Origin: Planctomicrobium piriforme | GTDB lineage: Bacteria > Planctomycetota > Planctomycetia > Pirellulales > UBA1268 | Assembly: GCA_945869735.1 (NCBI GenBank) | Contig: CAMBPQ010000019.1 | Coordinates: 1-47,184 of the forward strand | Direction: 5' to 3' | DNA length: 47,184 nt | Part shown: piece by piece, positions 21,728 through 24,563 of the stretch | How positions within the stretch are numbered: the first letter of the stretch is position 1 | Layout: each line of letters begins with the position of its first letter | Made by a program: the position numbers and the translations under genes | Notes under the pieces: generated by a model | Told to the model about the DNA's origin: nothing | The model's input: only the letters and a program-made list of their open reading frames with translations | Databases searched by the model: none

Positions 21728-22039
21728 ATGCGTCAGGCGTTCAGGCGGTCAATCGGGCAGCCGCACCTCGTTGCGGCCGGCATCGCGGTGGCATTGTTGT
21801 TGTGCGCGACCGATGCGTTTGGCTGCCCCAACTGCAAGGACGCGGTCAATACATCCGACCCCGAGGGGCTGAACATAGCGCGAGGCTACTTCTATAGCAT
21901 CCTGCTGATGCTCGCGATGCCGTTCACGCTGGCAGGCTCGTTCGGGGCCTATGTGTGGCGCGAGATGCGCCGCCAGCGGGCTCAGGCGGGCGAGGGTGGG
22001 TCGATGCCCGTCGACGTTCCCGAGCGGCAGCGATCGTGA
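21728..22039 (+). CDS. Small secreted/membrane protein with CPNC motif
   Basis: About 103 residues: a signal-like helix ending in ATDAFG, immediately followed by CPNCKDAVN, then a second hydrophobic helix YFYSILLMLAMPFTLAGSF and a basic cytoplasmic tail. The two cysteines sit at the predicted mature N-terminus on the outer face, suggesting metal binding or thiol chemistry. I do not know a named family; similar short proteins accompany oxidase genes in planctomycetes, from memory. I chose the ATG at 21728 with GAGGAG upstream; an ATG at 21704 is also in frame. The stop overlaps the next start (GTGA), so it is translationally coupled. Confidence 0.75.
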   Translation: MRQAFRRSIGQPHLVAAGIAVALLLCATDAFGCPNCKDAVNTSDPEGLNIARGYFYSILLMLAMPFTLAGSFGAYVWREMRRQRAQAGEGGSMPVDVPERQRS

Positions 22040-23106
22040 CCGATGACATCGACCAGCACGACTTCGGGGCTGTGTCCGGTGGGCCGGACGCCACGGTCCC
22101 GCTGCCCAGCCGGCGGGTCGTGAAAAACTATCTGGCCACCGGGGAGCGGCGGCGGCTTTTCCTGCTGGTGATGCCGGCGGGGCTCGTGCTGATGCTCGTG
22201 CTCGGATGGGTGGAGCGGACGTGGTTTCCGCGTGGCGAGTCGGATCGGCGGCCCTCGCAGGTCGACACCCGGCTTGAGGCGGTCAACGGGCCACGCCCCC
22301 GGGGCGACGAGTTGGTGATCGAACCCGACCCCGAGCCGTTCGACGATCATCCGGCGACGCTCCTCAGCGCCTCGCCCGAATCGCTGTCGCACGTTCGCGA
22401 CGCCACGTTCTTCCGGGAGTCGGACAACGACGCTTGGCTCCAGACGTGGAACACGCTCCGCGAGACGGGCGTCGCCGCGCTCTTGCGGGCGCATCCGCCG
22501 GAGGTGAGTTTCAGTGAGTTGTTCGGCCAGCCGCGGTCGTTCCGGGGCAGACTCGTGCGGATGCAGGGGACGTTTCACCGTCTGGAAAAAGTCGGGGCGC
22601 CTGCTAACAACTACTCCATCAACGACTACTGGCAGGGCTGGATGGAGCCCCTGGGTGGGCCCGCATCGCCGGTCGTCGTCCAGAGCCTGCGGATTCCCGA
22701 GGGTATGCCGAGCGGGATGCAGATCGACGAGCCCGTGGAGATCATCGGCTACTTCTTCAAGAACTATGCGTACAACGCGACCGACGCGATCCGCATCGCA
22801 CCTCTGATCATGACGCTCGAACCGATTTGGAAGCCGAAGCCCGTGGCCGCGGAATCCCCGCTGGGCCCGTCCGGCGGTGTGACGCTCGTTGTGCTCGCCA
22901 CGATGGCTGCGCTCGTGGCGGCGACCTGGCTCGGTGTCAGCCGTGGTGGCCGACCGGTCGCCGGCCGGACGGCGACGGATCCGGCCGGGCTCGACGAGTC
23001 GCTCGCGAACCTGAAGTTATTTTCAGTCGAGGAGTCGCTCCGCGAACTCGCCAGCGACCGCGATGCCGCCGCCGAGACGCCCACCATCAGGGAGCCTGGA
23101 TCATGA
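22036..23106 (+). CDS. Unrecognised membrane protein with possible OB-like module (first of a pair)
   Basis: This 356-residue protein has one transmembrane helix near the N-terminus (41-59) and another near 281-301. Between them lies a soluble domain with the segments RGRLVRMQGTFHRLEK and LRIPEGMPSGMQIDEPVEI, followed by GYFFKNYAYNATDA. The alternating beta pattern suggests a small OB-like barrel, but I cannot name a family. The next gene encodes a protein with matching segments. Start GTG 22036 overlaps the upstream stop codon, and the stop overlaps the next ATG, so the three genes are coupled. Its position in the oxidase cluster suggests an assembly or structural role; this is inference. 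Confidence 0.75.
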   Translation: MTDDIDQHDFGAVSGGPDATVPLPSRRVVKNYLATGERRRLFLLVMPAGLVLMLVLGWVERTWFPRGESDRRPSQVDTRLEAVNGPRPRGDELVIEPDPEPFDDHPATLLSASPESLSHVRDATFFRESDNDAWLQTWNTLRETGVAALLRAHPPEVSFSELFGQPRSFRGRLVRMQGTFHRLEKVGAPANNYSINDYWQGWMEPLGGPASPVVVQSLRIPEGMPSGMQIDEPVEIIGYFFKNYAYNATDAIRIAPLIMTLEPIWKPKPVAAESPLGPSGGVTLVVLATMAALVAATWLGVSRGGRPVAGRTATDPAGLDESLANLKLFSVEESLRELASDRDAAAETPTIREPGS

Positions 23107-24563
23107 CGAGGTCGTTGCATAAGAGTTCGTTCCATCAGCTGAAGTCGGGCGTGGGGCTGGTTTGCTGCTCACGCTGCGTCGGGGCAGGACTCTTGCTCGT
23201 GGCCTTCGTCGTCGCGACGGGCACGGTGTTCGGGCAGGAGGCCGCGACGAAGCCGAGCGCCGATCTCGGCTCGTTCCTCGTCCTCAAGGGAATCGATCTG
23301 TCACGGCGGGGGGTCTTCGACGCAGAGACGCCCTGGAACGACGATAAAGAGCGGATGCTCCTGCGGGTGCTCACGCGGATGGCGGCCCCGGCGAATCTTG
23401 CGGTGGCCTGGGCCGCGGACGCCGTCGACGTGGCCGCCCGAGGCAGCGAGACCGTGCTCGGCGACCGGCTGGTGCGTGTCCGCGGGCGGGCGACGTTTGT
23501 GGCCACTCGGCAGTTGCCCACCGTGCTCGCGGAGTTGGCGGGCCGTGACCGCTACGATGTGGTCCGCATCGTCGACGAGCGGGGGGCAGTGGTCGACGTG
23601 GTGACGCCGCGGGCGCCGCTGGCCTGGCGCCGCGGGGTGGCCATCGATGAAACGGCCGCCGCGGTCGGTCTTCCGCTCATGGCGGGAGTCGGGCCGCAGC
23701 CCAACGCGGCGGGAGTCGGGCCGCAGCCCGACGCGGCAGCGGAGCCCTGGCCGGCTGCGGCTCACGATCTGCTGCTTGTGGCGACTGGCGTGGAATACAC
23801 GCCGCCGACGCCGCTCGGCCGTCTGGGCATGGACTACGGGCTGTTCGACACCGTTGTCGACGACCGCAAGCTCGAACCGGGCGACACCGACGCCTTCTGG
23901 GGCGTCATGGCCGCCACCTGCCGTGCTCGACCGGCGGAGATCGCGCGGGCCGCCGGCGGCCGCACCGACATCCTGCCGCTCATCGATCCGGCGCAGAAAT
24001 GGTTTGCCAGCCATCGCGGCGACCCGGTCGTGATCGAGGGCGTGGCCCGCTCGGCCCGCCGGATTACGATCGACGACCCCGGGCCGCGGACTGCGGTCGG
24101 TGGCGACCACTACTGGGAGTTGGAGATATTCGTCGACACACCGCTCCTCGAGGTCAACGGGCGGCAGCAAGACCGCTATCCGATCGTCTGCTGTGTCCGC
24201 ACCGTCACCGAGGGGATGCCGACGGGAGACACCATCAGCGAACGGGTTCGCGTGCCGGGATTCGCGTTCAAACGCTACAGCTATCCGCTCCGCGACGCGC
24301 TGATCACTTCGTCGCTGGGCGACTCGGAGATCAAGGGAGAGCGGATGTCGACGCCACTGGTGATCGGGCCGATCGCAGAATGGCAGCAGCCGCCCTCGGC
24401 GAAGGGGGCGTCCGACCTGTTGTTCCTGATCTTCACTGGGATCATCGGCGTTCTTGCACTGTTGATGGTCTTCAGTAGTTGGTCGACGCATCGGCAGTTG
24501 GCCCAGGCCGAGCGGCTCCGGCGGGCGGCGATGCCCGACCGACTCGAACTGCCGAACGAGTGA
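23103..24563 (+). CDS. Unrecognised membrane protein with possible OB-like module (second of a pair)
   Basis: This 486-residue protein has a signal peptide ending near TGTVFGQE and one C-terminal helix ([19 protein letters not shown], about 438-458) followed by a short basic tail. A segment near 300-400 parallels the preceding protein: [18 protein letters not shown], then [20 protein letters not shown] and [14 protein letters not shown]. An earlier segment, [20 protein letters not shown], may be another copy. Residues near 194-211 contain a duplicated nine-residue unit [18 protein letters not shown]. It is the last gene of the respiratory cluster, with a 110-base gap before mdh. Function unknown; probably an envelope protein working with its neighbour. 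Confidence 0.75.
23682..23735 (+). repeat. In-frame 27-base tandem duplication
   Basis: Two 27-base units, the first beginning at 23682 and the second at 23709, encode AGVGPQPNA and AGVGPQPDA inside the unrecognised protein. They differ at a single base (AAC versus GAC). Confidence 0.85.

Follow-up and report, generated by a model that had tools for sequence, protein, structure and literature searches.

Profile and alignment comparisons showed that P1 and P2, two neighbouring membrane proteins encoded in the window, contain homologous modules, and that the pair carries three of them. Both proteins belong to an undescribed family with a wide distribution in Planctomycetota. The reading we favour, which in our estimate has an even chance of being right, is that P1 and P2 serve as accessory subunits in a TolQ-TolR-TolR motor that is driven by protons and has TPR, and often vWA, partners. 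The window, which is the whole stretch of DNA analysed (47,184 nucleotides), is contig C19 of a 3.17-Mb genome in 128 contigs, and its relevant features are as follows.

14964..21661, + strand: cytochrome c oxidase cluster upstream of the pair (COX1, COX15-CtaA, UbiA, COX3, COX4_pro, SCO1 and DUF420; Pfam)
21704..22039, + strand: gene for a 111-aa protein that has two hydrophobic segments and a CPNCK motif; its end overlaps the start of P1 (GTGA)
22036..23106, + strand: P1, 356 aa, GTG start (open reading frame and translation; relatives L003-L008)
22156..22212, + strand: N-terminal transmembrane segment of P1, residues 41-59 (hydropathy; helix 35-63 in the model)
22360..22875, + strand: P1 module, residues 109-280 (family alignment)
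22876..22932, + strand: C-terminal transmembrane segment of P1, residues 281-299 (hydropathy; helix 278-302 in the model)
23103..24563, + strand: P2, 486 aa, ATG start (open reading frame and translation; orthologs)
23157..23213, + strand: N-terminal hydrophobic segment of P2, residues 19-37, a signal peptide or anchor (hydropathy)
23283..23669, + strand: first module of P2, residues 61-189, diverged (first-module profile, hhalign, OB-like model)
23681..23737, + strand: 27-bp tandem duplication in the P2 linker, 2.1 copies with 96% matches (Tandem Repeats Finder)
23784..24428, + strand: second module of P2, residues 228-442, a clear counterpart of the P1 module (BLASTP, profile, hhalign, family alignment)
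24417..24473, + strand: C-terminal transmembrane segment of P2, residues 439-457 (hydropathy; helix 436-476 in the model)
24604..25623, + strand: lactate/malate dehydrogenase gene adjoining P2 (Pfam Ldh_1_N and Ldh_1_C)

The two genes lie on the + strand and overlap by ATGA. Hydropathy revealed two hydrophobic segments in each protein. In P1 they flank a single module as transmembrane segments, and in P2 two modules lie between the N-terminal signal or transmembrane segment and the C-terminal transmembrane segment. The P1 module begins with a helical part, followed by an OB-like part at about residues 145-268, the region for which OB-fold structural neighbours were found. The hydrophobic segments and the charges flanking them would place the modules outside the cytoplasm, as the earlier note had supposed; this placement is probable for P1, and the signal is weak for P2. 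The tandem duplication in the P2 linker falls where five orthologs have a gap in the alignment. Two near-identical records join P1 and P2 into a single reading frame. The fusion is present in full in L004 (502-2601, 700 aa), and that in L008 (5989-6972) ends at the contig end and is incomplete. By eye, the P1 C-terminal and P2 N-terminal hydrophobic segments are absent from the fusion junction.

The relationship between the proteins was evident at several levels. BLASTP aligned P1 with P2 at E 8e-6, and the profile-profile comparison that the earlier note had proposed for its twin proteins with a common module, carried out with hhalign on alignments of six orthologs each, gave E 5.6e-10 and a probability of 96.6. 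A profile of 31 single-module P1-type rows matched 15/15 P2-type or two-module proteins, with E values from 1.5e-43 to 1.3e-5. The window P2 matched this profile at E 3.2e-18 in one colinear alignment over residues 237-477, which contained all four of the peptide pairs previously matched by eye, in the order then described. The controls were 15 reversed and 75 shuffled sequences; two of these 90, both reversed, were listed, at E 0.25 and 0.67. One of the 31 rows, L008, is the cut fusion and carries part of the P2 N-terminus. After its removal the profile again matched 15/15 (E 1.2e-43 to 2.7e-5; window P2, E 3.9e-18), with six reversed controls listed at a best E of 0.08. L008 was also left out of alignment A1 as a near repeat of L004 (321/328 residues); L013 and L015 were dropped as the same genes as L048 and L054, and the overlong false N-termini of L005, L006 and L007 were trimmed. 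Seven alignment columns have one residue in more than 80% of 123 modules (R170, G171, G178, P221, G238, K242 and P256 in P1 numbering), followed by D122, F240 and Y246 at 78-79%. The second module of P2 keeps all of the top seven except P221.

A third copy in the N-terminal part of P2 had been suspected from the letters, and it was recovered with profiles of its own kind. The P1 profile missed this module in the window P2, a mixed profile gave a useless i-E of 140, and hhalign against the P1 set was weak (E 0.0025, probability 11.8). A profile of 10 first modules from other genomes of the same order matched window P2 residues 61-189 at E 2.5e-8; the same profile found 7/7 P2 N-termini tested, and the best of 147 controls reached E 1.7. 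By hhalign, the window's first module matched the other first modules at E 4.2e-13 and the full set of 123 modules at E 3.8e-5 (probability 70.9). It is because the first-module profile and hhalign find this copy that we count three modules in the pair. In other genomes of the order the P1 profile recognises both modules of P2 separately (in L045, for instance, at i-E 1.2e-13 and 1.1e-28), and by these comparisons the first copy in the window P2 has drifted away.

In a quick tree of the 123 modules, the two P2 modules of the order grouped together, apart from P1 (support 94, 27 rows), and P1 grouped (95) with proteins from a different order of the class that have a single module. Inner branches were open in 51/120 cases, and a single clade of all three module types of the order was not rejected (p-AU 0.54). 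The origin by duplication proposed in the earlier note is thus clear from the grouping, and the tree does not settle the timing.

AlphaFold models of modest quality were built from six sequences. The P1 model had a mean pLDDT of 49.4, with values per ten residues of 65-77 over residues 151-240 and 37-43 over 241-270, the stretch into which the last strand of the OB-like part falls. The mean for P2 was 48.3; its first copy reached 59-83 over residues 91-190 and its second copy stayed below 50. A second structural search gave best Z values of 8.1 (P1, about 145-268) and 7.1 (P2 first copy, about 102-252), which sit in the range where, according to the tool, unrelated models also score. All 50 rows listed by this search for each query are OB-fold proteins, judged by title. 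Foldseek gave best E values of 2.0e-3 for P1 and 7.3e-3 for the first copy of P2, none below 1e-3, with a few non-OB rows. A profile of 63 modules searched against the PDB reached an unconvincing best E of 0.61. We consider an OB-like fold likely for the module because the structural lists are consistent and the strand order fits, there being no single strong hit. The OB-like unit of the earlier note therefore stood, with modest confidence, for P1 and the first copy of P2 in the models; that of the second copy was too poor to compare, and its assignment to the module is made from sequence.

Searches with P1 alone found relatives in 36/294 Planctomycetota genomes and with P2 alone in 4/294, the window's own included in both counts. 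The 63-module profile extended the family to 260/392 genomes, again including the window's own, with 1-4 matches per genome, and to 143/217 when completeness of 90% or more and contamination of 5% or less were required; the sampling was within Planctomycetota, and restriction to the phylum is not implied. Some members are much longer proteins of 815-1370 aa with the modules in the C-terminal part (L072, L096, L101, L103, L123). Pfam searches of 54 members up to E 0.1 gave no family matching more than 3/54, the matches including RskA_C (2/54, best E 0.00079) and DUF4381 (3/54, best E 0.00096). Pfam and NCBIfam yielded nothing usable for P1 and P2, nor did sequence searches of the PDB. No earlier description of the module family was found in the literature within scope, which left out most subscription journals, and we infer that the domain is an undescribed envelope domain.

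Three candidate relationships were considered and set aside. The LptF/LptG permease family (PF03739, LptF_LptG) matched P1 residues 127-209 at 11.5 bits (E 0.15), far below the cut-off of 27.9. The best PDB match of the P2 profile, a death-domain membrane protein (E 0.0038), covered positions 377-454, corresponding to the C-terminal membrane segment, and was taken as chance. A role of P1 as an anti-sigma factor for a nearby sigma gene was dropped because only about 40 residues precede its first membrane segment.

The gene neighbourhoods of the module were examined in 80 stretches of about 9-17 kb from 64 genomes, chosen by module position only. An ExbB/TolQ gene was present in 16/80 module loci, where the numbers of ExbB genes in the 64 genomes would predict 1.2; the P of about 6e-14 for this excess assumes independent loci, an assumption that is overstated since linked loci share ancestry. 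ExbB genes in the loci were identified with a profile from linked ExbB and the expected number came from the Pfam model; counting by blastp clusters instead gave 14/80. At least two ExbD/TolR genes precede the module gene, on the same strand, in 13/80 loci, which come from 12 genomes and 8 families. One of these 13 (L081) lacks a recognised ExbB, and L075, with an ExbB-like ORF two genes off, belongs to the 16 and lies outside the 13. In L080 the module gene is preceded by a short ExbD-like ORF and by ExbD frames that overlap. No family member was found by profile in L083.

A second arrangement was found in the other genomes of the window's order, where the P1-P2 pair is divergent from a TPR-TolQ-TolR-TolR cluster in 10/11; the ExbB of several of them lies beyond the first stretches and was found in wider flanking DNA. 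A vWA/YfbK-type gene (a homolog of the L132 gene, Pfam VWA_2) stands between the pair and the cluster in nine of the ten, all but G274. Pfam itself names a vWA domain in 5/9 of these genes; in the homologs of L044, L134, L138, L151 and L155 it gave no vWA domain and at most YfbK_C, and the L155 ORF is joined to a sigma-like stretch. The eleventh genome, G167, has no motor cluster over about 48 kb. The same divergent arrangement occurs in G315, a genome of another order, with the vWA gene missing. Linked genomes totalled 23/64. The other 41 showed no motor cluster in the stretches examined; wider coverage was confined to the linked genomes and G167. A solitary ExbB-like ORF was present in G166, one of the 41.

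In the window's own genome the pair sits between the cox genes and the malate-dehydrogenase-like gene, apart from motor genes. The gene set of the PVC vWA motor system (TPR, TolQ-like, two TolR-like and vWA genes) is nevertheless present, together on contig C7 as vWA-type, TPR-type, TolQ, TolR and TolR genes. Pfam recognised MotA_ExbB and two ExbD there. The large protein encoded upstream shows homology to the L044 TPR protein (E 2.1e-38), though Pfam gave it no TPR match, and the vWA-type gene has a weak YfbK_C match below cut-off (E 2.7e-5). A further Pfam match in the window, downstream of the dehydrogenase gene, is a YscJ/FliF-family protein (26871-28673, E 7.5e-17), with homologs at that place in L004-L007.

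A TolQ/ExbB tree was built from 44 rows, comprising 23 linked, 20 unlinked (a sample of those genomes' ExbB) and the one from contig C7, with no row from L158, L163, L169 or L128. A single group of 24 (support 91) took in 22 of the 23 linked rows; its other two members were the C7 row and the unlinked L172. By this tree, therefore, the module goes with one kind of TolQ and not with ExbB-like genes generally. The remaining linked row (L079) is a 29-residue artefact outside the group, and L070 forms a long branch inside it. On the weakly supported module tree, motor linkage requires at least nine changes over 86 loci. Other neighbours also recur as homologs, though not all are adjacent: aroB in 11 loci, dprA in 12, a purN-like formyltransferase in 12 and the dehydrogenase in 13. 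In distant Planctomycetota the module gene adjoins a homolog of aroB (3-dehydroquinate synthase), and dprA often comes next (aroB loci: L077, L078, L086, L092, L095, L099, L102, L121, L122, L123). In another family of the class a second paralog adjoins the purN-like gene (L050, L052, L054, L057, L061, L066, L068, L111, L113, L114, L118). These recurrent neighbours are housekeeping genes, so some of the gene order may simply be inherited, which tempers a motor reading.

On our preferred reading, P1 and P2 are paralogous inner-membrane proteins, and each presents a periplasmic module of a helical part and a probable OB-like barrel, once in P1 and twice in P2. In the periplasm the OB-like modules may serve as clamps that bind protein or wall, holding the TPR or TolR parts or coupling them to the envelope. 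In the window's lineage the pair lies away from the motor genes, still present on contig C7, and gene order suggests that it is probably co-expressed with the cytochrome oxidase genes. More tentatively, and with somewhat less than an even chance, the module could be a dedicated, unnamed and widespread part of an envelope motor in Planctomycetota (TolQ-TolR-TolR with TPR and often vWA), in which an OB-like clamp anchored in the membrane takes the place of the transducer step or regulates it. Against a motor role stand the position of the window pair, the 41 genomes without a cluster in the stretches examined, the unlinked L172 TolQ inside the linked group and the recurrence of housekeeping neighbours.

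Alternatively, P1 and P2 could be general envelope scaffolds, such as wall- or glycan-binding anchors, whose linkage to motor genes would reflect inherited order without direct contact. The variation of neighbours by lineage (aroB-dprA, purN-like, dehydrogenase, cox) fits this reading, as does the number of genomes without linkage. However, the linkage occurs in two arrangements, same-strand and divergent, and in several parts of the module tree, and it involves one TolQ group, so that we regard scaffolding as rather unlikely. The window itself invites another explanation, under which P1 and P2 would serve the aa3-type cytochrome c oxidase, whose genes lie just upstream, as assembly or accessory factors. 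The 111-aa CPNCK gene, which has no Pfam match up to E 0.01, directly precedes the pair in 6/6 close relatives (L003-L008); in 5/6, those with contigs reaching far enough, the pair follows cox, SCO1 and DUF420 genes, and in the window start and stop codons overlap between the 111-aa gene and P1 and between P1 and P2. Nonetheless, blastp at E 1e-4 found no cox genes in the 40 stretches L044-L083 of other genomes, where this widespread family stands beside motor or housekeeping genes, and neither Pfam nor NCBIfam matched P1 or P2 to a COX subunit or assembly family up to E 10. An oxidase role in the window's lineage is improbable on this evidence. Nucleic acid binding, a property of many of the OB folds listed, was suggested by the structural neighbours, which include tRNA synthetases, RPA, SSB and MCM proteins. 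A common fold does not show function, however; a lipoprotein OB fold (3f1z) scored as high, with Z 8.0, and the hydrophobic segments and their flanking charges put the module outside the cytoplasm (weakly for P2). We regard nucleic acid binding as very improbable.

Accessory subunits of a TolQ-TolR-TolR motor remain our preferred reading. Planctomycetes have an unusual cell envelope, and to our knowledge how motors energise it is not understood. A repeat first seen by eye is now defined as a domain, present three times in the window and belonging to a family found in 260/392 genomes for which no Pfam or NCBIfam model was found (NCBIfam for P1 and P2 only). Its linkage to Tol/Exb-type envelope motor genes is a first clue to the job of this domain, and the association with one TolQ group provides concrete genes and a complex for the study of envelope energisation.

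Among known systems, the TolA/TonB transducers resemble P1 and P2 in being encoded with TolQ/TolR-type motors and in having an N-terminal membrane segment. Transducers of this type carry an SHLS motif histidine in the N-terminal transmembrane helix (PMC12204202). Unlike these proteins, as their features are given there, both P1 and P2 carry a hydrophobic segment at each end, and no histidine was seen within the 19 residues of the N-terminal segment in P1 or in 11 motor-adjacent members examined, two of which have a histidine just after the segment. The OB part of P1 can be compared with 3f1z, a Klebsiella OB-fold lipoprotein (putative nucleic acid-binding), which aligned 103 residues with P1 145-262 at an rmsd of 2.9 and 12% identity, with no sequence match. 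A further parallel lies in the vWA force transducers of the PVC group. P1 and P2 differ from these in the domain itself, since no vWA family appears among their Pfam matches or among the 19 families listed for the 54 members. An OB-like partner is not mentioned in section 8 of PMC12204202, and "OB-fold" has 0 occurrences in its main text. That section describes TPR, TolQ-like and two TolR-like genes with a vWA protein as a motor type, and the cluster near P1-P2 in the window's order has the same motor gene set, including the vWA/YfbK-type gene in 9/10 linked genomes, with Pfam VWA in five.
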